DNA of 38,165 nucleotides from Kofleriaceae bacterium (GTDB lineage Bacteria > Myxococcota_A > Polyangia > Haliangiales > Haliangiaceae). The stretch covers positions 1-38,165 of the forward strand of contig JABFXX010000535.1 in the NCBI GenBank assembly GCA_013368795.1, read 5' to 3'. Positions 7,238-32,641 of this stretch are shown in pieces. Every line of letters starts with the position of its first letter. Position 1 is the stretch's first letter. A program made the translations under genes and the position numbers. The notes under the pieces are model-generated. The model was not told the origin of the DNA and searched no databases. It worked only from the letters and a program-made list of their open reading frames with translations.

Positions 7238-7582
7238 TCACTTGTCGGGATTGAGATGGATGATCTTGCCGATCGCGACGAGATCGCCGTCCGCGGTGAG
7301 GTTCATGTCCTCGCTGCTCTTGATCTCGACGCGCTTGGACTCGATCTCGACCGACTCGCTCGCCTTGAGCTGCAGGCGCGCGGCGTCCATCTGCAGCACC
7401 GGCCCCTCTTCGGTGAGGCGGATGCGAACCTCGAGCATGCCGGACTCGTTCCGGATCTCGACGAGCTGGTCGCCGTGCTGCTCGCTGACGACGAGCTTGC
7501 GCCCGTTGCGCAGGTAGACCTCGCGCTCCTCGCTCACCTCCTCCGTCGTCGTCTGGAGGTTTTCGCCCGGAGGTCGCGACAT
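7238..7582 (-). CDS. small VgrG/gp5 C-terminal-like beta-repeat protein
   Basis: The product is 114 residues with an acidic N-terminus (residues 1-20) and a body of alternating hydrophobic and charged residues with a period near eight: VLQMDAARLQLKASESV, VEIESKRVEIKSSEDM, LTADGDLVAIG. That pattern matches the triple-stranded beta-helix needle at the C-terminus of VgrG/gp5 spike proteins and related DUF2345-like repeats. No OB-fold or gp27-like part is present, so this would be only a needle piece. It lies 1.1 kb from a PAAR tip gene, which fits a contractile-injection context. It stands first in the minus-strand run that continues into the methyltransferase and radical SAM genes. The function is inferred from the repeat pattern only; another beta-solenoid is possible. 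Confidence 0.5.
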   Translation of the reverse strand: MSRPPGENLQTTTEEVSEEREVYLRNGRKLVVSEQHGDQLVEIRNESGMLEVRIRLTEEGPVLQMDAARLQLKASESVEIESKRVEIKSSEDMNLTADGDLVAIGKIIHLNPDK

Positions 7583-7634
7583 GGATTCAGGCTATCACAT
7601 ACGATGGAATCGGCCGTCGCACGCGGTCGTCACC

Positions 7635-8606
7635 ATGTCGCTGGATCTGCTGGTCTGCCCCGCTTGCCGTACGTGGAGTCCCGAACGGATCGACGTGAAG
7701 ACGATCGAACCGAGCGGCAGCGACTTCCTCGCATGCGAGTGCGGCCGGCGGTATCCGATCGTCGACGGCGTGCCGATCGTGCTGACCGATCCGGGCGGGT
7801 ATCTGCGCTCCGATCCTGCGACCGTGCTCGAGCGCGACGTATCGCCCGAGGTCGCGGCGGCGCTGGTCGCCGACGGCCCGGACGATGCGCCCTACGCGCG
7901 GATGCTCGAGCACGTCTCGATCTACATGGACGCGCACTGGGGCGATCGCGTCGAGCCAGCACCGGATGGACCGGGCGCGGGATTCGGGCTCGCGCCGTTC
8001 GTCGAGCGCATCGCCGCGCTGCCGCGGGTTCCGCTCGCGGTCGAGCTCGGATGCAGCGTCGGGCGGATCGCGGCGGAGCTGCCGGCCGAGCGCGTGATGG
8101 CGGTCGACATGCACTTCGGCGCGGTCCGGCGCGCACGCCGGCTCCTCGCGGGCGAGCCGGTCGCGTATGCGCGGCGCATGATCGGACGGACCTATGCGCC
8201 GGCGGTCGCGAGCGCCGGTGATCGAGCGCGCGCCGTGAAGGTCGTGTGCGGCGACGTACTCGAGCCGCCGTTCGTGCCGGGCGCGTTCGACCGGGTGGTC
8301 GCACTCAACATGCTCGACTCGGTCACCCACCCCAGGCGCCTGCTCGCGGTGATCGATGGCCTGACGAAGGTCGGTGGCGAGATCGTGATCGCGTCCCCGT
8401 ACGCATGGCAGAGCTCGGTCATGCACGAGGACGAGCGGATCGGCGGGGCCGACCCGGCCGCGGCGGTGGCGGAGATCCTGCGGACGGGGCTGTCGAGGCC
8501 GTACCGGATCGAGGACGAGGCGGAACTTTCCTGGACGTTGCGCAGGGATGCGCGCAGCGCGGTCACCTACCAGACCCACTACCTGAGGGCCCGCAAGGGA
8601 ACCTAG
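7635..8606 (+). CDS. class I SAM methyltransferase with N-terminal Trm112-like zinc ribbon
   Basis: The product is 323 residues. The N-terminus has paired cysteines C8/C11 (LLVCPACR) and C34/C36 (CECG), then RRYPIVDGVPIVL, which resembles the Trm112/UPF0434 zinc-ribbon domain found at the front of many methyltransferases. The SAM-binding motif is at about 145-153 (AVELGCSVGR), with an acidic end of strand 2 (VMAVDMHFGAVRRAR), and the motif IV region reads FDRVVALNMLDSV. The ATG at 7635 starts directly before the zinc ribbon. An upstream ATG at 7581 would overlap the start codon of the divergent gene, leaving no room for promoters, and adds residues without domain character. The substrate is unknown. 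Downstream sits the PAAR operon, 34 bp away but apparently with its own promoter. Confidence 0.82.
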   Translation: MSLDLLVCPACRTWSPERIDVKTIEPSGSDFLACECGRRYPIVDGVPIVLTDPGGYLRSDPATVLERDVSPEVAAALVADGPDDAPYARMLEHVSIYMDAHWGDRVEPAPDGPGAGFGLAPFVERIAALPRVPLAVELGCSVGRIAAELPAERVMAVDMHFGAVRRARRLLAGEPVAYARRMIGRTYAPAVASAGDRARAVKVVCGDVLEPPFVPGAFDRVVALNMLDSVTHPRRLLAVIDGLTKVGGEIVIASPYAWQSSVMHEDERIGGADPAAAVAEILRTGLSRPYRIEDEAELSWTLRRDARSAVTYQTHYLRARKGT

Positions 8607-8621
8607 ATGGGCCCAGTCCCG

Positions 8622-8627
8622 TATAAT
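8622..8627 (+). promoter_or_regulatory. -10 element (TATAAT) of the PAAR operon
   Basis: A perfect TATAAT lies 13 bases upstream of the ATG at 8641, in a window where such AT-rich hexamers are rare. At 17-bp spacing the -35 position reads GAACCT, a poor match to TTGACA. A start site about 7 bases after the hexamer would leave a 5' leader of only a few bases. Confidence 0.45.
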
Positions 8628-8640
8628 CGCTGACCACGGT

Positions 8641-9486
8641 ATGCCGGCACCGCAATCATCAGCGATGAAGCAGCTTGCGAGGCTCAAGTTCTCGCAGAAC
8701 AACCTCAGGGTGCCCGACCAGTGGCAGCAGCCAACGGGCGATCCGGCCGGCGACCATTACAACAACGCCTTCAAGCCGGAAGAGAAGTCGACGACGCCCG
8801 CAATGGCCGCGCCGCCGCTGTTCACGGCGCACTCGATGAACAAGTACCACACCGACGTTCAGAAGATGCTGACGTCGAAGATCGGTGGCTACATCGACGG
8901 CATCTGCGACGCGATCTGCTCCGCCTGGAGCACGTGGCAGTCGGCCGCGACGATGGTCGGCGTCGTCGTCAACGCGGTGACCGCGACGGGCGGTCAGGTC
9001 GTCGGCCCGCCGCTCACGCCGCTGATCCTCGCGCAGGGTCCGAAGGCGACCCCGATGGAGCTGAAGTACACGACCACGATCGCGAACGTCATCGGCACCG
9101 CGTGGCTGTCGTACACCGCGACGATCAAGGTGCCCGGCCTGCCGTGGTACCCGGCATTCGCCGCGTTCCCGTCGCCGGTCGCGCCGCCGACGCCGAACGT
9201 GCCCTGCCCCGTGGTCACGCTGACGCAGGTCCCTGTGTCGGTGAAGGCCGCGACGATGAAGCCGCAGATGATCGGTCAGCTCGCCGATCCGCAGGCGCAG
9301 TATCACCAGCAGCTGTTCGACTGCGTCTGCGATGCGTTCGAGAAGGTCCATACGATCTGGCAGACGTCGACGATGGTGACCAACGTGCTCGGCACCGGTC
9401 CCGTCCCGACGTTCGCGCCGCCCTACGTGCCGGTCGGCCCCGTCGTCGGCGGCGTCGGCACGATGACACCCGGAGGCTTCGTGTAA
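8641..9486 (+). CDS. unknown repeat protein encoded with a PAAR tip
   Basis: The product is 281 residues and is not a family I recognise. The first 65 residues are polar and Pro-rich without a signal peptide. The rest appears to hold three related units that begin with an amphipathic helix and end in a Gly/Pro/Val-rich strand: about 83-128 (IDGICDAICSAWSTWQS, then GGQVVGPPLTP), about 145-185 (TTIANVIGTAWLSYTA, then FPSPVAPPTPN) and about 222-268 (QQLFDCVCDAFEKVHTIWQT, then FAPPYVPVGPVV). The stop and the ATG of the PAAR gene share one base (TAATG), so the two are translationally coupled. That suggests a tip-associated structural protein, adaptor or cargo of a contractile injection system. The function is inferred from context only. 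Confidence 0.6.
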   Translation: MPAPQSSAMKQLARLKFSQNNLRVPDQWQQPTGDPAGDHYNNAFKPEEKSTTPAMAAPPLFTAHSMNKYHTDVQKMLTSKIGGYIDGICDAICSAWSTWQSAATMVGVVVNAVTATGGQVVGPPLTPLILAQGPKATPMELKYTTTIANVIGTAWLSYTATIKVPGLPWYPAFAAFPSPVAPPTPNVPCPVVTLTQVPVSVKAATMKPQMIGQLADPQAQYHQQLFDCVCDAFEKVHTIWQTSTMVTNVLGTGPVPTFAPPYVPVGPVVGGVGTMTPGGFV

Positions 9487-9806
9487 TGCCCGGCCAAGGA
9501 CGACTCGGAGACAAGTCGAACGTTCCCATCTGCGCGCACGGCTGCCCGGCGTGTCCGCATCCCGCCGTTGGCCCCGCGATCATCGGCTCGCCTGACGTGA
9601 ACGTGAACAAGCGACCCGCGCTGCGCGTCGGCGACAGGGGCGTTCACGCCGCCTGCTGCAACACGAACACGTGGGAAGCGAAGGCCGGCAGCGGCACCGT
9701 GTTCATCAACGGCAAGGCCGCCCATCGCATGGGCGACCAGGACCAGCACTGCGGCGGCAGCGGTCAGCTGATCGAAGGCTCGACCAACGTGATCGTCGGC
9801 GGCTGA
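9486..9806 (+). CDS. PAAR-domain spike tip protein
   Basis: The product is 106 residues, the usual length for stand-alone PAAR proteins. PAAR proteins form a zinc-bound cone that caps the VgrG/gp5 spike of type VI secretion and related contractile injection systems. Diagnostic segments are GRLGDKS at the N-terminus, CAHGCPACPHPAVGPAIIGS, VNKRPALRVGDRGVHAACC, GSGTVFINGKAAHRMGDQDQ and the closing STNVIVGG. Cys and His residues in CPACPH, HAACC and QHC could bind metal. It overlaps the preceding gene by one base and nearly touches the convergent small zinc-ribbon gene. No sheath, tube, baseplate or ClpV genes are in the window, so it belongs to an orphan tip set or to a system elsewhere in the genome. 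Confidence 0.88.
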   Translation: MPGQGRLGDKSNVPICAHGCPACPHPAVGPAIIGSPDVNVNKRPALRVGDRGVHAACCNTNTWEAKAGSGTVFINGKAAHRMGDQDQHCGGSGQLIEGSTNVIVGG

Positions 9807-24870: not shown

Positions 24871-24914
24871 CACTGTACAGCCTGTGCACAGTGGCATCGA
24901 CGTTGCTGTAGGAT
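24871..24914 (+). promoter_or_regulatory. promoter and overlapping inverted repeat of the heme/DUF1501 operon
   Basis: TGCACA at 24886-24891 (4/6 match to TTGACA) and TAGGAT at 24909-24914 are separated by 17 bp and could be -35 and -10. An inverted repeat with 10-base arms and one mismatch, CCACTGTACA (24871-24880) and TGCACAGTGG (24886-24895), covers the -35, as expected of a repressor or activator site. The ATG codons at 24913 and 24922 would then lie within or at the start of the transcript, which favours the downstream start at 24979. Confidence 0.45.
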
Positions 24915-24978
24915 GCGCTTCATGCTGGGTGGTCTCATTGCAAACAAGGGCACCGGGGCTCTCAAGTCCCGGAAGGCC

Positions 24979-26181
24979 ATGTTGGACACCCTCATGAGGC
25001 ATCTCCCTATGGTTCGACTGTCTGTGGGGGCCTTCGTGGCCCTGGCTCTGGTGGGCTGCAGCGGTCTCATTGACGACGGTGGGGGCGAAACCCTGACCGC
25101 CGAGGAGCAGGCCGCGCGCACCCTCTTCTCTCAGAAGGCAAAGCCGGTGCTCGATACCAGCTGCGCCTCCTGCCACTCGGGCTCCGACCCGACCGTCGCG
25201 TTCCTCCAGGGTGCAAACCCGATGGAAGTCCGCGAGAAGCTGATGTCTTTCGACCCGCAGGTCGTGAACCTCGAGGCTCCGACCTCGTCGCGCCTGCTCA
25301 CGAAGGGCGCTCACTCGGGTCCCTCGCTGCTCGCGACGCAGGCCTCGGACCTGCTCGAGTGGATCAGCGCGGAGCGCGACGCGGCCAACGTGACGGGGAA
25401 CGGAGACACCAGCCTCAAGACGGAGCCGTTCACCCCGCTCCTCTGCACCGCGGGCGTCCCGGGCGACCCGACGTGCCCGATCAACCTCGTCGACATCAGC
25501 TCGCTCGTGGAGGGCTGGGCCGGCGCGAAGATCAAGTTCGTCGCGCAGCCGCTGTCGCAGGACCTCTACCTGACGAACCTCGCGATCGAAGGCGGCACCG
25601 AGGGCGTGTACCTCGAGCACCCGCTGTTCGTGTCGGTGCCGCTCGACGGCCAGCCGATCCCGGACACGCTCGACCGCTACTTCGACGTGAAGATCAACAT
25701 GAAGGCCGGCGACGAGCCGCAGCCGATCGGTGGCGGCAGCGCGGCGTTCATCAACTTCACGCCCGGCAACCGTCTCGCGATCCACTTCAAGGTCGTCGAT
25801 CGCTATCGCGACGAGGGCGGCATGGGCGGCGGCATTACCGGCGCGACCGGCTGCAAGAAGCTCGCGGAGTTCAAGGCCAACGCGAAGACGCCGCTGCAGA
25901 ACAGCTGCGGTAGCTGCCACGCGAACGCCGGCAACGCGAACGCGCGCGGCGCGATGGACATCACCGGCGTCAACGCGACCGACGATGCGACGCTGCAGAA
26001 CGTCTGCAACCAGGTGCGCACTCGCATCAACTTCACCGACACGAATCAGAGCGGTTTCTTCATCGCCCCGAACCCCGCGCAGGGAACGAACCACCCGTTC
26101 AAGTTCCCGGCGCAGGGCAACTTCGACACCTTCAAAGCGGCTGTGGATGTTTGGGTCCAGGCCGAGAAAACTGCCCAGTAG
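24979..26181 (+). CDS. di-heme cytochrome c-type lipoprotein, first gene of an export operon
   Basis: The product is 400 residues from ATG 24979. Earlier in-frame ATGs (24913, 24922) would give an overlong signal peptide, and ATGs at 24994 and 25012 are also possible. The signal ends in ALVGC with lipid Cys27. Two heme motifs are present: C62-A-S-C65-H66 (DTSCASCHSG) and C310-G-S-C313-H314 (NSCGSCHANAGN). About 245 residues of beta-rich sequence lie between them (VYLEHPLFVSVPLDG, FINFTPGNRLAIHFKVVD). The heme contexts resemble planctomycete-type cytochrome domains that accompany DUF1549/DUF1501 proteins. It would sit in the periplasm or on the outer membrane and pass electrons to or from the next gene's mono-heme protein, 20 bp downstream. 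Confidence 0.82.
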   Translation: MLDTLMRHLPMVRLSVGAFVALALVGCSGLIDDGGGETLTAEEQAARTLFSQKAKPVLDTSCASCHSGSDPTVAFLQGANPMEVREKLMSFDPQVVNLEAPTSSRLLTKGAHSGPSLLATQASDLLEWISAERDAANVTGNGDTSLKTEPFTPLLCTAGVPGDPTCPINLVDISSLVEGWAGAKIKFVAQPLSQDLYLTNLAIEGGTEGVYLEHPLFVSVPLDGQPIPDTLDRYFDVKINMKAGDEPQPIGGGSAAFINFTPGNRLAIHFKVVDRYRDEGGMGGGITGATGCKKLAEFKANAKTPLQNSCGSCHANAGNANARGAMDITGVNATDDATLQNVCNQVRTRINFTDTNQSGFFIAPNPAQGTNHPFKFPAQGNFDTFKAAVDVWVQAEKTAQ

Positions 26182-26201
26182 TTCCGCGTAAAGGAGCACC
26201 C

Positions 26202-27404
26202 ATGAAGAGGATCTCAGCACTGCTTTTGGCTGCCGCGTGTGCGGTACCGGCCTGCAGCTCCGACCCCGGAGACAACGGCATGGGCTCCGGCTCTGGTTCC
26301 AACAACGGATCCGGCAGCGGAGACGAATGGGACCAGCAGCTGTCGGCTCGCGAGCTCGACTACAACGCTGCTCTTCGCATCGCCGCGCTGCGCCTGACCG
26401 GCGCGCTGCCGACCATGGCGGAGATCAACGAGATCGCGACCGCGCCCGACGACGCCGGGAAGAAGACGGCGTACGAGGCACGGATCGCCGAGTACATGGG
26501 CCGCCCGACGTTCTCGACCCAGATGTTCCTGTTCTGGCGTGACACGTTCAAGATGGGCGAGACCGCGATGCTCGACACCGCGCCGGCGTTCGCCGCGCGC
26601 CTGTCGGTCAACAACGGCTCGTACATGGACATGTTCACGGCGGGCTCGGACAACTGCCCGACGTTCGACATGGGCACCGGAACGTTCACGTCGGCGGAGT
26701 GCACCAACGGCGGTCCGAAGGCGGGTCTCCTCACGAACCCGGGCATCCAGGCGCACTACTTCGGCAACCTCGCGTTCCGTCGCTCGCGCTTCTACCAGGA
26801 GACCTTCGTCTGCACGAAGTTCCCCGCGGAGATCTCGGCGACCCCGACCGACGTCGGCGGCGCCGCGCCCTACACCGGCGTGTGGCCGTTCGACTCGATC
26901 GCGAGCCCGACCAACGGCGGCGGTCGCATCAACTTCCAGGACACGTCGGCGGTCATTTGCGCGAACTGCCACTCGACGCTGAACCACCTGACGCCGCTCT
27001 TCGCGTACTACGACGATCAGGGCGTCTACAAGCAGGCCATCTCGGTGCCGACGCCGCTCGACGGCGCGCCGCTCGCGAAGATGTCCGACTACCTGCCCGA
27101 CGGCCAGCAGACCGCGTGGCGCCAGGGCGTCCCGGCCACTGACCTCCCGGCGCTCGGCACGGCGATGGCCGCCGACCCGGCGGTCGCCGAGTGTGGCGTC
27201 GCGCGCATGTGGAACTGGGCGATGGGCAAGACGGATATCGTCGACACCCTCCAGGAAGTCCCGCACGAGACGATCGCGGCGCAGATCGATGCGTTCACCG
27301 CGAGCGGCTACAAGATGAAGGACCTCATCTACGGCGTGTTCACCGCCGATGACTTCGTGAAATTCTCGAAGGCCCCGGGCGCCCCCGGCACGGGTACGAA
27401 CTGA
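26202..27404 (+). CDS. mono-heme DUF1549/DUF1592-like lipoprotein
   Basis: The product is 400 residues. ATG 26202 has a good ribosome site, AAGGAG at 26191-26196. The signal peptide ends in VPAC with Cys18, followed by a Gly/Ser-rich spacer (25-40). Residues 50-120 (AALRIAALRLTGALPTMAEI, KKTAYEARIAEYMGRPTF) resemble the start of DUF1549/DUF1592-type domains of planctomycetes and myxobacteria. A single heme site is at C253-A-N-C256-H257 (ICANCHSTLNHLTPLF). The C-terminal 90 residues contain MWNWAMGKTDIVD and GYKMKDLIYGVFTADDFVKF, also seen in these families. The biochemical role is unproven; they are thought to be surface or periplasmic redox-linked degradative proteins. Co-operonic with a DUF1501-like Tat protein, the usual partner. 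Confidence 0.78.
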   Translation: MKRISALLLAAACAVPACSSDPGDNGMGSGSGSNNGSGSGDEWDQQLSARELDYNAALRIAALRLTGALPTMAEINEIATAPDDAGKKTAYEARIAEYMGRPTFSTQMFLFWRDTFKMGETAMLDTAPAFAARLSVNNGSYMDMFTAGSDNCPTFDMGTGTFTSAECTNGGPKAGLLTNPGIQAHYFGNLAFRRSRFYQETFVCTKFPAEISATPTDVGGAAPYTGVWPFDSIASPTNGGGRINFQDTSAVICANCHSTLNHLTPLFAYYDDQGVYKQAISVPTPLDGAPLAKMSDYLPDGQQTAWRQGVPATDLPALGTAMAADPAVAECGVARMWNWAMGKTDIVDTLQEVPHETIAAQIDAFTASGYKMKDLIYGVFTADDFVKFSKAPGAPGTGTN

Positions 27405-27415
27405 GGAGGACGACC

Positions 27416-28078
27416 ATGAGCCGCATTGGATATACCCTCGCAATCCTGGCTTCGTCGGTCTTGGCCTCCGCCTGCACCGATGACATCAACGCCCCCGTCG
27501 ATCAGCCGGCTGGCTCGACCGCCGGTAACGAAGAGTCGACCTTCGACCACGAGAACGACTACATCTCCCCATGGGAGCTGCTCGATCGTCTCGCGAAGGA
27601 AGGCCCGCCGCGCTACACGTCGCGCGTCCACTCCTGCCCGAAGATTCGCTACCGCACGATGGGCGAGGTCCTCAAGGGCGTCGGCATCAACCCGGCGAAC
27701 ACGGCGGCCGTCTCGGCCGGTGACCTCTACCGCAACGGTATGAACGCGCTCGGCGGTCCGAACTACGCGAACCGCATCCGCGAGAACATCGCGGTCACGA
27801 CGTCGGGCGCCTCGCGCGCGTTCGACATCTACGCCGCCGGTGCAGACGAGGTCATCACCGCGTTCGCGAACAACACGATCGCGCGCTGCCCCGGCGCGCA
27901 GCTGTTCGACGCGTCCAACGCGTGCCGCCCCGAAGGCATCACCTGCCTCCTCGGCGTTCCGGCGACGACCCGTCACCTCGAGTACTGCAACCTAACCGTT
28001 AACGGCGCAACTGATACTACCGTCGGCAAGCGTCTTGCCGTCGCGGCTCTCCTGGCCGCGGCCAACACCTGCGAGTGA
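27416..28078 (+). CDS. Cys-rich lipoprotein of the heme/DUF1501 operon
   Basis: The product is 220 residues. A strong ribosome site (GAGGAGG) precedes ATG 27416, only 11 bases after the previous stop. The signal peptide ends in LASAC with lipid Cys20. The mature part has six further cysteines, most near the C-terminus (ARCPGAQLFDASNACR, ITCLLGVPATTRHLEYC, ANTCE), suggesting disulfides. I recognise no domain. Segments such as YRTMGEVLKGVGIN and GGPNYANRIRENIAVTTSGA are distinctive and should make homologue searches easy. Its place between the mono-heme protein and the Tat-exported protein suggests a structural subunit or chaperone of the same exported complex. Confidence 0.7.
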   Translation: MSRIGYTLAILASSVLASACTDDINAPVDQPAGSTAGNEESTFDHENDYISPWELLDRLAKEGPPRYTSRVHSCPKIRYRTMGEVLKGVGINPANTAAVSAGDLYRNGMNALGGPNYANRIRENIAVTTSGASRAFDIYAAGADEVITAFANNTIARCPGAQLFDASNACRPEGITCLLGVPATTRHLEYCNLTVNGATDTTVGKRLAVAALLAAANTCE

Positions 28079-28089
28079 GGAGACCCACC

Positions 28090-29472
28090 ATGGCCAAATC
28101 ACCATTCTCCAAGCGTGACGAGCAGCGCGACATTACCCGCCGCGCGCTCATCAAGTGGAGCGTCGCAGCGGGCGCGGCTCTCGGTGTCTCGCGTTCGAAG
28201 GTCTTCGAGATCCTCGAGCGTACCGCAGGCAAGGACCTCGCATTCGCAGCGGCCGAAAACCCGACCACCCGCTCGGTCCACATCATCGCCGGCAACGGCG
28301 GTAACGCGTGGTTCCAGCTGCTGTGGCCGCACAACGACATCGCGGCCGCGAACAACCCGAACTTCGCCTGGCACCGTCCCGGCGAGTCGTCGCTGATCCC
28401 CGGCACCGACAAGCCGCTCACGAAGGGCCCGGACACCCCGTTCCAGGACCTCCCGGCCGCGCGTCAGATGACGGTGTTCCAGTGCGGCAACAACGAGACG
28501 CACACGGCGAACCCGACGTCGGTGCTCACGCTCAACGGCAACAACATCATCTCGGTCGCGAGCGCGCTGCAGTCGACCTCGCCGTCGGTCATCCCGATGA
28601 TCTCGATCGGCGGTGTCGATGCCGGTACCGCTCCGGGCGCGGCTCGTCCCGCGGCCGTCGGTAACGCGGATGGCGTTGTCGGCCTGTTCAACTCGGCCGC
28701 GTCGCGCGCCGGCGGTCTGCTCTCCAAGGCGGAGGACGCCCAGCTCTACAAGGCGCAGTACGACGCGTTCGCCCAGATGAACCGGGTGAACTCGACGACG
28801 AAGAGCTCGTACCAGACGGCCTCGAGCGCCGCGCAGTTCCTCGGTACGAACCTCGCCGCGAAGCTCCAGATCACGAACGAGGACCTCACCCGCTACGGCA
28901 TCGACGGTACGACGCGCGCCAACGTGCGCGACATCGGCCGCGCGCTCATCGTCGCGGTGAAGGCGTTCAGGATGGGCCTCACGAACTCCGTGTCGCTCCC
29001 GGCCATGCGCGACGATCCGCACGGCGCGTTCGCCGACGGCTCGGCGATGTCGGTCCCGCCGATGCTCCGCAAGGTCTTCGACGGCTTCATGAACGACCTC
29101 AAGAACACCGTCGACGACAACACCGGCAAGGTCCTGGCGGACGACACCGTCATGACGATCACCGGCGACACGACGAAGAACCCGCTGCAGCGCGGTGGCT
29201 GGCCGGACGGCACTCCGAATAACTCGAACGTTGTCTGGGTGTACTCGGCGGGCCACCTGATGTCGGGCTGGTTCGGCGGCACGCGCCGCGACGGCACGGC
29301 GCAGGGCTTCGACGCGAACGGCGCGACCGCGGCCTACAACGGCGCGAACACCGCTCGCTTCGCGATGGCCTCGATCGCGTACGCGATTGCCAAGCGCGAT
29401 GACCGCGCGATCACCAACTTCGCGAACGGCGTGAAGATCGGTGGCGTGTTCGGTCGCCTGAAGGACCTGTAA
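28090..29472 (+). CDS. Tat-exported DUF1501-like protein
   Basis: The product is 460 residues from ATG 28090, with GAGGAGA 6-12 bases upstream. The N-terminus has a twin-arginine signal: DITRRALIKWSVAAGAALG. The body shows the general plan of DUF1501 proteins (alkaline-phosphatase-like fold): a start strand SVHIIAGNGGNAWFQLLWP, a central DIGRALIVAVKAFRMGL, and a late segment VMTITGDTTKNPLQ followed by NNSNVVWVYSAGHLMSGWFG. The usual EFGRT motif of DUF1501 is not present, so the call is a remote one. Tat export implies folding with a cofactor or partner in the cytoplasm. It closes the operon; a clear intrinsic terminator follows 23 bases after the stop. Confidence 0.7.
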   Translation: MAKSPFSKRDEQRDITRRALIKWSVAAGAALGVSRSKVFEILERTAGKDLAFAAAENPTTRSVHIIAGNGGNAWFQLLWPHNDIAAANNPNFAWHRPGESSLIPGTDKPLTKGPDTPFQDLPAARQMTVFQCGNNETHTANPTSVLTLNGNNIISVASALQSTSPSVIPMISIGGVDAGTAPGAARPAAVGNADGVVGLFNSAASRAGGLLSKAEDAQLYKAQYDAFAQMNRVNSTTKSSYQTASSAAQFLGTNLAAKLQITNEDLTRYGIDGTTRANVRDIGRALIVAVKAFRMGLTNSVSLPAMRDDPHGAFADGSAMSVPPMLRKVFDGFMNDLKNTVDDNTGKVLADDTVMTITGDTTKNPLQRGGWPDGTPNNSNVVWVYSAGHLMSGWFGGTRRDGTAQGFDANGATAAYNGANTARFAMASIAYAIAKRDDRAITNFANGVKIGGVFGRLKDL

Positions 29473-29545: not shown

Positions 29546-30181
29546 GTGCTGCGCGCGGTGCTCGTCTGCCTGGTGTTCGTCCTGTCGTCCTGTGAAAAGA
29601 AACAAGGCGGAGGCGAAGCCGTGGGCTCGGGCTCCGCGGTCGTCGACGAGTACGAACACGAGCAGGCGCGGTTCGACGCCGAGCGCCGGCCCGACAAGGT
29701 CATCGAGGCGCTCGCCATCAGGCCGGGCTCGCGCGTCGCCGACGTCGGCGCCGGATCGGGCCTCTTGACCGTGCATCTCGCACGCGCGGTGGCACCGAAC
29801 GGCAAGGTGGTGGCGACCGATGTCGACGGCACCGTGCTCGGATTACTGGCGCAGCGGCTAAAAGCTGCAAAGCTCGATGGTGTCGTCGAGACGCGCGTCG
29901 TCGGCGCCGACACGCCGGGCCTCGAACCGGCGTCGTATGACGCGATCCTGCTTGCCGAGGTCGACCATTACTTCACCGATCCAGCCGCGTGGCTTCGCGA
30001 GGCGAGCAAGGCGCTCAAGCCGGGCGGTCGCATCGTGATCTCCAATCGCATCTATCACCGCGCCCAGACGATGGCGTCGGCGAAGAAGGCCGGGCTCGAG
30101 CTCCTGAGCGAGTCGACGCCGGTGACGACGCATTTCATCGCCGTGTTCGTGGTCCCCCAACCGAGTGAGCCGAAGAAATGA
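29546..30181 (+). CDS. lipoprotein with class I SAM methyltransferase domain
   Basis: The product is 211 residues from a GTG start. Residues 1-16 are a lipoprotein signal ending in VLSSC. From about residue 45 a complete class I methyltransferase domain follows: motif I VADVGAGSGLLTVHLA, motif II VVATDVDGTV, motif IV YDAILLAEVDHYF and a post-motif LKPGGRIVIS. S-adenosylmethionine is not known to be available outside the cytoplasm, so an exported methyltransferase is puzzling; similar lipoprotein methyltransferases are annotated in other proteobacteria without a proven role. The stop overlaps the start of the next lipoprotein gene as ATGA, so the two are coupled. TACGCT 8 bases upstream of the GTG is a possible -10 element. 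Confidence 0.82.
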   Translation: MLRAVLVCLVFVLSSCEKKQGGGEAVGSGSAVVDEYEHEQARFDAERRPDKVIEALAIRPGSRVADVGAGSGLLTVHLARAVAPNGKVVATDVDGTVLGLLAQRLKAAKLDGVVETRVVGADTPGLEPASYDAILLAEVDHYFTDPAAWLREASKALKPGGRIVISNRIYHRAQTMASAKKAGLELLSESTPVTTHFIAVFVVPQPSEPKK

Positions 30182-30705
30182 AATACGCCCCTCTCCTGCT
30201 CCTGGTGCTCGCGGCCTGCCCCGGTGACGACGGCGGCGAAGGCAACGCGCAGACGCTCTGGCTCGCGCCCGACAAGATGGAGACGCAGGTCAAGCTCGTC
30301 GAAGATCGCCCTCCTCCGTTTTGAGCACCTGGCGTGGGGGCCGGTGGCTCCCAGGAGGCCGAATACGGCCTGAAGGCAAGCGTGCCTTCGGGGACGTACC
30401 ACTTCGTCCTCGATTCGATCATCATCTCGCCCGTCGACGTGACGTTCGACCTGGTGTGGCGGCACGGCGGCACCGACACGACGCTCGCGAGCTGGACGAA
30501 GCACTTCGAGCCGCTCGGCGGCGCGAGCTTCGACGCGCAGGCCTACGAGGTCGACATGGACTGCCAGGCGATCACCTTCGCGCCCGGCGACGAGCTCGTG
30601 TTCCGCTACACGGGCGCGAACACGCAGTCGCTGCAGGCGTACATCCCGAACGGCGACGGCGAGCTCTCGCACGGCCGCATCCCGAACATCACGCTGCCCA
30701 GGTGA
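30178..30705 (+). CDS. lipoprotein gene with one in-frame UGA at codon 49 (selenoprotein candidate or nonsense-disrupted gene)
   Basis: ATG 30178 starts inside the stop of the methyltransferase gene (ATGA). The first 48 codons give a lipoprotein signal (MKYAPLLLLVLAAC, lipid Cys14) and a short mature part ending EDRPPPF. TGA follows at 30322-30324, and the same frame then continues without another stop for 126 codons to a TGA at 30703-30705. The downstream part (QEAEYGLKASVPSGTYHF, FAPGDELVFRYTGANTQSLQ) is beta-rich and strongly GC3-biased like a real gene. Its only cysteine is in VDMDCQAITF. A GTG at 30334 could restart translation but would lose the signal peptide and has no ribosome site. 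The options are selenocysteine or other readthrough, a recent nonsense mutation, or a sequencing error. I do not recognise the domain. Confidence 0.6.
30306..30362 (+). promoter_or_regulatory. RNA structure around the in-frame UGA, SECIS-like hairpin
   Basis: Eleven bases after the UGA, GGGGGCC (30336-30342) and GGCTCCC (30346-30352) form a 7-bp stem with one G-U pair and a GGU loop, a 17-base hairpin. Outside it, CCTCCT (30310-30315) can pair with AGGAGG (30353-30358), extended by TCG/CGA after one mismatch, enclosing the UGA. The minimal E. coli fdhF SECIS is, from memory, also a 17-base hairpin 11 bases after the UGA with GU in the loop; that one has a bulged U which is missing here. Confidence 0.4.
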
Positions 30706-30745: not shown

Positions 30746-32641
30746 ATGAAGCTCATCGGGGTCGTGCTTGCGGTCCTCGTCGCATTCGCGCAGCCAGCGC
30801 GCGCAGACGAGCAGCGAGCCTGGGTCAAATCGATCCCGGATGCGAAGACGTGGAAGGCCTACTCGCGGACGGTCGGCAGCGACGAGTTCGGCAAGGCTGT
30901 CATCGACGTCAAGACGAACGACATCTACTTCATCGACGTCAACCTCTTCAACATCCACGCCGATTTCGTCCTCGGCGTGCTGCTCAAGCAGCCTTGGACC
31001 GCGCAGAACATCCGCGAGTACAACAAGAACTACGAGCGCGTGAAGCCGCGCTTCATCCTCTGCTACCTGACGCACCACCTGAAGGTCGACAAGTGGACGT
31101 TCTCGTTCTGGGAGGGCGACAAGATCGGCCCCGACGACGTGATGCGCGTGAAGAAGCGGTTCACGGAGACGTTCTTCCAGAAGGACCTGCCGTTCCGCCC
31201 GGACTCGCCGATGCAGCAGAAGGTCGCCGTCGAGGTGAAGAAGCGCGGGCTCGCGACGATCACCAACGACGAGATCTATAACGCCGCCGAGTTCCAGGCG
31301 TTCCACAAGGGCAAGGCCGTCGGCAAGCTGAAGATCGTGCCGGTCGGCACGCCGTTCGAGTCGCTGACGTTCGATCGCCACGACATCGTGCTGCTCCAGG
31401 AGAGCTATCCAGACATCACGCCGGTCGCCGGCATCATCGCGACGCAGTTCTCGACGCCGCTCTCGCACGTCAACCTGCGCGCGGGCGCGTGGGGCATCCC
31501 GAACGCGGGTGACAAGAAGGCGCGCGAGAAGTACGGCAAGCTCGACGGCAAGGTCGTCTACCTCGAGGTCACCGACACCGCGATCACGCTGCGCGAGGCG
31601 ACCGCCGCCGAGGTCAAGCAGCTCGAGGACAAGATCTACTCGACGAAGCACGTCGAGCTGCCACAGGCCGACACGACGACGCCGCGCCTGCCGATGCTGA
31701 CGCGCATCCGCGCGAAGGACGTGCTGCGCTACGGCACGAAGACGTCGAACCTCGGCGAGATCGTGACGGCGAACCTCGAGGGCGTGCGCGTGCCGCCCGG
31801 CTTCGGCGTGCCGTTCTTCTATTACGTGCAGCACATCCAGCAGGCGGGGCTCGACAAGAAGATCGACGCGATGCTCGCCGATCCGAAGTGGAAGACCGAC
31901 GCGGCGTGGCGCAAGGCGACGCTCGAGACGCTGCGCAAGGCGATCGTCGATGCGCCGGTCGATCCGGCCGCGCTCGACGTCATCTACAAGCGCGTGCGCA
32001 TCAAGCTCGGCGGCAAGGGCGTGTTCGTGCGGAGCTCGTCGAACTCGGAGGACCTGCCCGGCTTCAACGGCGCCGGCCTCTACGACACGGTCGGCAACGT
32101 CGTCGGCAAGAAGGCGCTCGGCGACGCGCTCAAGACGGTGTGGGCGTCGCTGTGGAACCTGCGCGCGGTCGAGGAACGCACCGCGTTCGGCATCGATCAC
32201 AAGCAGGCGTACATGGGCGTGCTCGTCCAGGTCGGCGTCAGCGCGACCGCGGCCGGCGTGCTCGTGACGAAGAACCTGTGGGACCCGGGTGACGACCACA
32301 GCTTCACGATCAACTCGAAGTGGGGCCTCGGCGAGCGCGTCGTTCAGGGTCAAAAGCTGCCCGAGCAGATCATCTTCGACCCGACCAACGACGGTACGAA
32401 GATCATCTCGCGCGCCGACGACCCGGTCATGCTCGTGTTCGACGAGAAGGGCGGCATCAAGGAGATGCCTGCTCCCGCGGGAGCGGGCGTGATCCTGAGC
32501 GAGGAACGTGCGAAGAAACTGTCGAACATGGTCGAGAAATTCATCCCGGTGTTCACGCACGGTCAGCCGCTCGACGTCGAGTGGGTCCTCGAAGGCGAGG
32601 ACGTGTGGATCGTCCAGGCTCGCCCGTACGTGGGGTCGTGA
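30746..32641 (+). CDS. exported PEP-synthase/glucan-dikinase-like phosphotransferase
   Basis: The product is 631 residues. Residues 1-20 are a Sec signal peptide (MKLIGVVLAVLVAFAQPARA, cut before DE). Residues about 30-185 are unrecognised. Residues about 190-285 form a phosphohistidine swivelling domain with H241 in FSTPLSHVNLRAGAWGIP. Residues about 325-630 are a PPDK_N-type ATP-grasp domain: GTKTSNLGEI, VRVPPGFGVPF, VFVRSSSNSEDLPGFNGAGL and the closing WIVQARP. The order His domain then ATP domain is that of glucan water dikinases; PEP synthase has the opposite order. No PEP/pyruvate TIM barrel is present. An exported ATP-dependent dikinase is unexpected because ATP is scarce outside the cytoplasm. 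The stop shares one base with the next lipoprotein's ATG. Confidence 0.82.
   Translation: MKLIGVVLAVLVAFAQPARADEQRAWVKSIPDAKTWKAYSRTVGSDEFGKAVIDVKTNDIYFIDVNLFNIHADFVLGVLLKQPWTAQNIREYNKNYERVKPRFILCYLTHHLKVDKWTFSFWEGDKIGPDDVMRVKKRFTETFFQKDLPFRPDSPMQQKVAVEVKKRGLATITNDEIYNAAEFQAFHKGKAVGKLKIVPVGTPFESLTFDRHDIVLLQESYPDITPVAGIIATQFSTPLSHVNLRAGAWGIPNAGDKKAREKYGKLDGKVVYLEVTDTAITLREATAAEVKQLEDKIYSTKHVELPQADTTTPRLPMLTRIRAKDVLRYGTKTSNLGEIVTANLEGVRVPPGFGVPFFYYVQHIQQAGLDKKIDAMLADPKWKTDAAWRKATLETLRKAIVDAPVDPAALDVIYKRVRIKLGGKGVFVRSSSNSEDLPGFNGAGLYDTVGNVVGKKALGDALKTVWASLWNLRAVEERTAFGIDHKQAYMGVLVQVGVSATAAGVLVTKNLWDPGDDHSFTINSKWGLGERVVQGQKLPEQIIFDPTNDGTKIISRADDPVMLVFDEKGGIKEMPAPAGAGVILSEERAKKLSNMVEKFIPVFTHGQPLDVEWVLEGEDVWIVQARPYVGS

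Follow-up and report, generated by a model that had tools for sequence, protein, structure and literature searches.

An in-frame UGA interrupts a lipoprotein gene at codon 49 in the window examined here (the whole 38,165-nt stretch of Kofleriaceae DNA that was analysed), and the question raised by this locus is whether the codon ends translation or is read as selenocysteine (Sec). An earlier reading of the sequence alone had proposed a possible new selenoprotein. The analysis supports that proposal, and only one part of it, a lower helix enclosing the UGA, failed. The gene is very likely (about 0.95) a real, conserved selenoprotein of a new family with Sec inserted at the UGA. This figure covers Sec insertion and the conserved family, not the reaction catalysed, and Sec incorporation is inferred, as there is no peptide, 75Se or reporter evidence.

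The gene and its lipoprotein signal

The source assembly is MAG-like (9.8 Mb over 723 contigs), and the relatives that carry names are MAGs of Kofleriaceae and other Myxococcales. The open reading frame starts at ATG 30178, reaches TGA at codon 49 and continues for 126 sense codons to a terminal TGA at 30703-30705 (Table 1). Its lipoprotein signal is MKYAPLLLLVLAAC, with the lipobox Cys at position 14. The signal, the position of the UGA and the 126 further in-frame codons, all claimed in the sequence-only reading, held when the sequence was read again. That reading had also remarked on unusual A/T-ending codons around the UGA; the GC3 values are 0.81 5' of the UGA and 0.94 3' of it, similar to those of the neighbouring genes.

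Table 1. Features of the locus, in window coordinates.
Feature	Position	Strand	Basis
Partner lipoprotein, class I SAM-methyltransferase fold	29546..30181	+	Pfam Methyltransf_12, 62.9 bits against a cut-off of 30
Selenolipoprotein gene, read through the UGA	30178..30705	+	175 aa with inferred Sec49; homologues full-length in 35 of 318 class genomes
Lipoprotein signal peptide, lipobox Cys14 (LLVLAAC)	30178..30219	+	Sequence; Cys14 invariant across the 25-member alignment
Inferred Sec-UGA, codon 49	30322..30324	+	Motif EPxP[FYW]-U-[AG]PGVG (here RPPPFUAPGVG); TGA in 38 of 38 homologues
Spacer between UGA and hairpin, 11 nt	30325..30335	+	Length constant in 32 aligned members; possible weak 3-bp mini-hairpin in some homologues
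SECIS hairpin, 7-bp stem, GGU loop	30336..30352	+	18 nt from UGA to apical loop; covariation

Conservation of the UGA codon

A search with the protein in which UGA was read as Sec revealed homologues in 25 of the 35 genomes of the order, each with an internal UGA. The UGA falls in the same column in all 25 aligned genes, within a motif that shows slight variants, e.g. UAAAVG in L015. Of the 318 genomes of the class, 35 gave hits to a profile, with 36 genes in total; a broader profile raised the count to 37, each gene had one UGA, and the homologues that carry it range down to 22% identity. The codon is kept as UGA in all 38 homologues read, i.e. 37 genes from the 35 class genomes and one from a further MAG (L088), and among these neither Cys, nor another residue or sense codon, nor UAG or UAA was found at the site. 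At their 3' ends, the 25 genes from the order use all three stops (13 TGA, 11 TAG and 1 TAA).

The alignment of homologues runs on across the UGA with an unbroken frame in all 38, and dN/dS is similar on the two sides (0.50 before and 0.49 after), though these values rest on distant, partly saturated pairs. In a diverse 26-row alignment, the Sec column is among only seven invariant columns. Genome G129 carries three divergent paralogues (L067 on contig C27, L096 on C82 and L130 on C45), all with the UGA and the hairpin. L096 sits after a secreted-protein gene, the product of which has a C-terminus that by eye resembles a MYXO-CTERM sorting tail.

Two short peptide patterns run against 84,980 species recovered 19 relatives, all with the UGA; a scan of this kind detects close relatives only. 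No Cys form was found in the 318 class genomes or in a phylum sample of 379, other phyla having been probed by the short patterns only, and the family had no match in plasmids and viral contigs. Every named member comes from a MAG or an uncultured assembly. Weak profile matches without a UGA were rejected: alignment did not support L092, L131 and L132 as relatives, and L133 leaves the Sec site uncovered and resembles a different protein.

The hairpin downstream of the UGA

The hairpin, GGGGGCC-GGU-GGCUCCC, begins exactly 11 nt past the UGA; all seven pairs form, and the folding energy of the 17-mer is -11.5 kcal/mol. Its position, stem, loop and spacing had been given in the sequence-only reading, and all were confirmed. 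Published limits for the bacterial element (bSECIS; PMC13188914) require 3-9 nt in the loop and 4-16 bp in the stem, a loop that opens with two G, a distance to it of 16-37 nt and an MFE no higher than -7.5. The hairpin meets every one of them (3 nt, 7 bp, GG, 18 nt and -11.5). The 11-nt spacing recalls the minimal E. coli fdhF element.

Such a hairpin (spacing 11, loop beginning with GG) follows 3 of the 771 TGA trinucleotides on both strands of the window. The hairpin alone is uncommon but not decisive, and therefore conservation, not the hairpin itself, must carry the argument. The MFE of the 39-nt stretch is ordinary for its composition (z -0.5). The Rfam SECIS_1 model gave no match here, a result that is uninformative, its control being silent everywhere as well.

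In 31 distinct sequences, stem pairing is maintained in 92.6% of cells, and changes on both sides occur at four stem pairs, in 22 cells in total. The stem covariation score is 0.425; shuffled alignments give 0.193, with none of 500 reaching the observed value, and sliding the partners gives no more than 0.123. The loop across homologues is GG(U/C/G); in 12 sequences the pair closest to it is open, which gives a loop of 5 nt there. In two homologues (L069 and L011) the hairpin is not the favoured structure in minimum-energy folds.

The second helix claimed in the sequence-only reading, CCUCCU (30310-30315) with AGGAGG (30353-30358), is present in this sequence. Its conservation failed: the same positions pair in just 42% of cells in 25 homologues, and a lower helix enclosing the UGA was rejected as a conserved element.

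As to the spacer, the 3-bp mini-hairpin is 81% paired, with the middle pair formed in 17 of 31 sequences. A weak co-change is seen there (GCA..GGT versus GCG..GGC), and the mini-hairpin is unpaired in many members. Despite high GC3, none of the 25 order genes uses GCC for the Ala that directly follows the UGA.

Selenocysteine machinery of the host

The same genome includes matches to selA (542 bits), selB (630 aa, 309 bits, above its cut-off) and selD (325 bits, with an in-frame UGA) and a tRNA-Sec (selC) with the anticodon UCA (66.9 bits). These genes lie on other contigs, and hence the sequence-only reading saw no sel genes in the window. In the host selD (L094, G000:C54:10063-11025, minus strand), the in-frame UGA is followed after 11 nt by CCGGCTC-GGT-GAGCTGG. 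Thus, selD is an independent positive control for the SECIS layout of this host, which is common to at least two unrelated genes.

Within the class, tRNA-Sec was detected in 31 of the 35 genomes that carry the gene and in 107 of the 283 others (Fisher P 6e-9; the test ignores shared ancestry). It was not found at E 1e-8 in the carriers G028 (94% complete) and G124 (99% complete), where binning gaps are the probable cause, although this has not been shown. The other two carriers without it are G002 (73% complete, with selB above its cut-off) and G125 (60% complete).

Four outcomes had been named in advance as refuting the proposal. A disruption unique to one strain and a genome lacking selB and selC are both contradicted, the former because genomes assembled independently of one another have the UGA in 38 of 38 genes and the latter because selA, selB, selC and selD are present. 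A base error, to be recognised in raw reads, is untenable because of the same 38 of 38. Homologues without Cys or Sec at the site would also have counted against it; no Cys form occurs, but all homologues carry the UGA and the covarying hairpin, which is the pattern of Sec.

Protein family and predicted fold

None of the 25 members has a Pfam or NCBIfam match above cut-off; the best E-values below it, 0.1 (NCBIfam) and 0.013 (Pfam lipoprotein attachment site), are reached by one or two members each. A PDB sequence search with the profile gave chance-level matches only, none of the 119 prokaryotic selenoprotein families and subfamilies catalogued in Table 1 of PMC13188914 matches, and the literature searched for myxobacterial selenoproteins held nothing relevant.

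AlphaFold2, run with 20 UGA-containing homologues, predicted a beta-sandwich (mean pLDDT 93, pTM 0.87) that is almost all-beta, with one 4-residue helix. In this model Sec is residue 35 and is predicted to lie in the long loop that joins the second strand (24-27) to the third (44-50). The lipobox Cys is the sole invariant Cys in the 25-member alignment, and neither this alignment nor the diverse 26-row one includes a conserved second or resolving Cys. The absence of a CxxU-type motif, noted in the sequence-only reading, holds: there is neither CxxU nor UxxC, and the protein has neither a thioredoxin fold with such a motif nor a GPX fold. The best structural neighbour of the model is the C-terminal jelly-roll domain of 8yzo (PaL; Z 13.9 over 145 residues, 2.7 A), followed by the C-terminal jelly-roll domains of X-prolyl dipeptidyl aminopeptidase and CocE-type hydrolases (Z about 8.5-11). 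These neighbours indicate the fold and not the function.

The neighbouring methyltransferase gene

The partner gene lies immediately upstream, and its stop overlaps the start of the selenoprotein gene (ATGA), as it does in many homologues. Its product has the motif I (GxGxG type) sequence VADVGAGSG and a lipoprotein signal of its own, so that it is apparently exported. Its scores against arsenite and UbiE-type models are all below cut-off, and neither type is favoured. A methyltransferase gene adjoins the selenoprotein gene in 18 of 19 named loci and is also found beside distant members in other families. The one adjoining the divergent paralogue on contig C45 of G129 has a signal-peptide-like start without a lipobox, and none was found next to L134, L135 or L137. 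Because the pair of exported proteins is conserved, a joint function is probable, with export itself inferred from the signals.

Other genes nearby are recorded as side observations. A cluster at 24913-29472 encodes a haem-binding-like lipoprotein, a DUF1549/DUF1585-like protein, a small lipoprotein and a TAT-signal protein; the gene for the last of these stays beside the methyltransferase gene in most Kofleriaceae loci. At 30746-32641, an apparent signal peptide precedes a pyruvate phosphate dikinase ATP-binding domain (PPDK_N), which is odd for an exported protein, and a PPDK_N-domain gene lies downstream of the selenoprotein gene in close relatives. Small genes at 7238-9806 resemble, by eye only, a type VI secretion spike set (gp5-like and PAAR-like proteins).

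Alternative explanations

If the UGA were an ordinary stop, the locus would encode a 48-residue lipoprotein followed by a second open reading frame, and one such frame (GTG 30334-30705) does exist mechanically. This is very unlikely, as that GTG reads GTC in 5 of 25 homologues, the residues flanking the UGA are among the most conserved, the site is never UAG or UAA although true terminal stops are mixed, and the frame is unbroken in every homologue, with a hairpin that covaries. A pseudogene, a point mutation or an assembly error might be suspected in a MAG of 723 contigs; conservation already refutes these and all but excludes them, since more than 30 independent assemblies share the same UGA, in 38 genes in all, and both halves are under similar constraint. 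Reading of the UGA as a residue other than Sec, by opal suppression, as Trp or by programmed readthrough, can be entertained insofar as Sec has not been measured directly. It too is very unlikely: the Sec machinery is complete, the SECIS-type hairpin covaries and the same layout follows the UGA of the host selD, UGA terminates other genes here, and the site is never occupied by Trp or a different sense codon in the homologues. It could further be argued that the selenoprotein is real and a diverged branch of a known family with Cys homologues outside Myxococcota, given that the profile search covered one phylum only and the 84,980-species scan reaches close relatives only. We consider this unlikely, as Pfam and NCBIfam contain no match to any of the 25 members and PDB sequences none to the profile, and the family is absent from the 119-family catalogue, plasmids and viral contigs.

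With regard to function, two proposals can be weighed. The Sec protein may bind a soft metal(loid), or serve the partner methyltransferase at the envelope by accepting or presenting a group, a possibility for which there is no ligand-binding evidence. The conserved, usually overlapping pair of genes for exported proteins, the lack of a conserved second Cys and the precedents of selenoprotein methyltransferases (arsenite methyltransferase, MduS) speak for it; against it, the partner is no closer to arsenite than to UbiE-type models, all below cut-off, and the methyltransferase linkage is missing in L134, L135 and L137. No supply of SAM beyond the cytoplasm is known, which also counts against this proposal. 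Alternatively, Sec may carry out redox chemistry in the envelope as a nucleophile, of the peroxidase type or another, and be reduced by an external thiol or nearby c-type cytochrome-like proteins. Redox enzymes make up the majority of selenoproteins that have an assigned or presumed role, and haem-binding-like and DUF1549/DUF1585-like genes lie upstream in the window. This role, likewise possible, is opposed by the absence of a thioredoxin or GPX fold and of a resolving Cys, and a linkage to cytochrome-like genes has not been shown outside this lineage.

Proposed mechanism and significance

In the selenoprotein reading, the hairpin would recruit SelB with Sec-tRNA(UCA), and Sec would be inserted at position 49, as inferred from the conserved UGA, the covarying SECIS and the complete machinery. 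The precursor would, to judge from its signal, be exported and receive a lipid at Cys14 to give an envelope-anchored beta-sandwich with Sec in the long loop, as in the predicted model, which probably works with the co-encoded methyltransferase-fold lipoprotein. Since no second Cys is conserved, a lone selenolate is favoured as a hypothesis: it may serve as nucleophile or soft metal(loid) ligand and not as half of a dithiol or selenenylsulfide pair. A peroxidase-type role is about as likely.

The family is thus very likely one of previously undescribed myxobacterial cell-envelope selenoproteins with the UGA in every copy examined. According to a 2025 study (PMC12013277), all known selenoproteins seem to have Cys homologues, and the present family may be an exception. 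A bolder reading, to which we give slightly less than an even chance, is that it is the first bacterial selenoprotein family with obligatory Sec and no Cys version at all; the chemistry of an exported, cysteine-independent beta-sandwich and its methyltransferase-fold partner would then be impossible with sulfur. Obligatory Sec is a strong lead and not a proven property, because the absence of Cys is established for the class and the phylum sample, and elsewhere by short patterns only.

The fixation of Sec in this family, which spans several myxobacterial families, challenges the view of PMC12013277 and provides a test case for what selenium can do and sulfur cannot. Methods that pair UGA genes with Cys homologues are blind to selenoprotein families without Cys forms, and more selenoproteins may be hidden as 'truncated' lipoproteins in soil Myxococcota MAGs. 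The family also links Sec to a putatively exported methyltransferase-fold protein.

Comparison with known systems

The C-terminal domains of 8yzo, X-prolyl peptidases and CocE share the general jelly-roll fold with the predicted model, but they are parts of larger hydrolases with about 10-15% identity, and the likeness is one of fold only, without a sequence match. Some of the families in Table 1 of PMC13188914, e.g. arsenite methyltransferase, have a short UxxG motif; none is described as a lipoprotein of this kind or with UAPGVG, and there is no NCBIfam match. MduS and the methyltransferase/UXPK-star double selenoproteins (NF047649) similarly tie Sec to a class I methyltransferase. In those systems the methyltransferase itself bears Sec, whereas here it is encoded by a separate neighbouring gene without a UGA, and the partner scores 43 bits against NF047649, far below the cut-off of 460. 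In comparison with the SelB/bSECIS selenoproteins (formate dehydrogenase, SelD), the family differs in being new in sequence, an envelope lipoprotein beta-sandwich without CxxU or UxxC, and one for which no Cys form was found. It shares with them the in-frame UGA, the SECIS hairpin just downstream inside the coding region and the complete sel machinery, and with the host SelD also the layout of 11 nt, 7 bp and a GGU loop.
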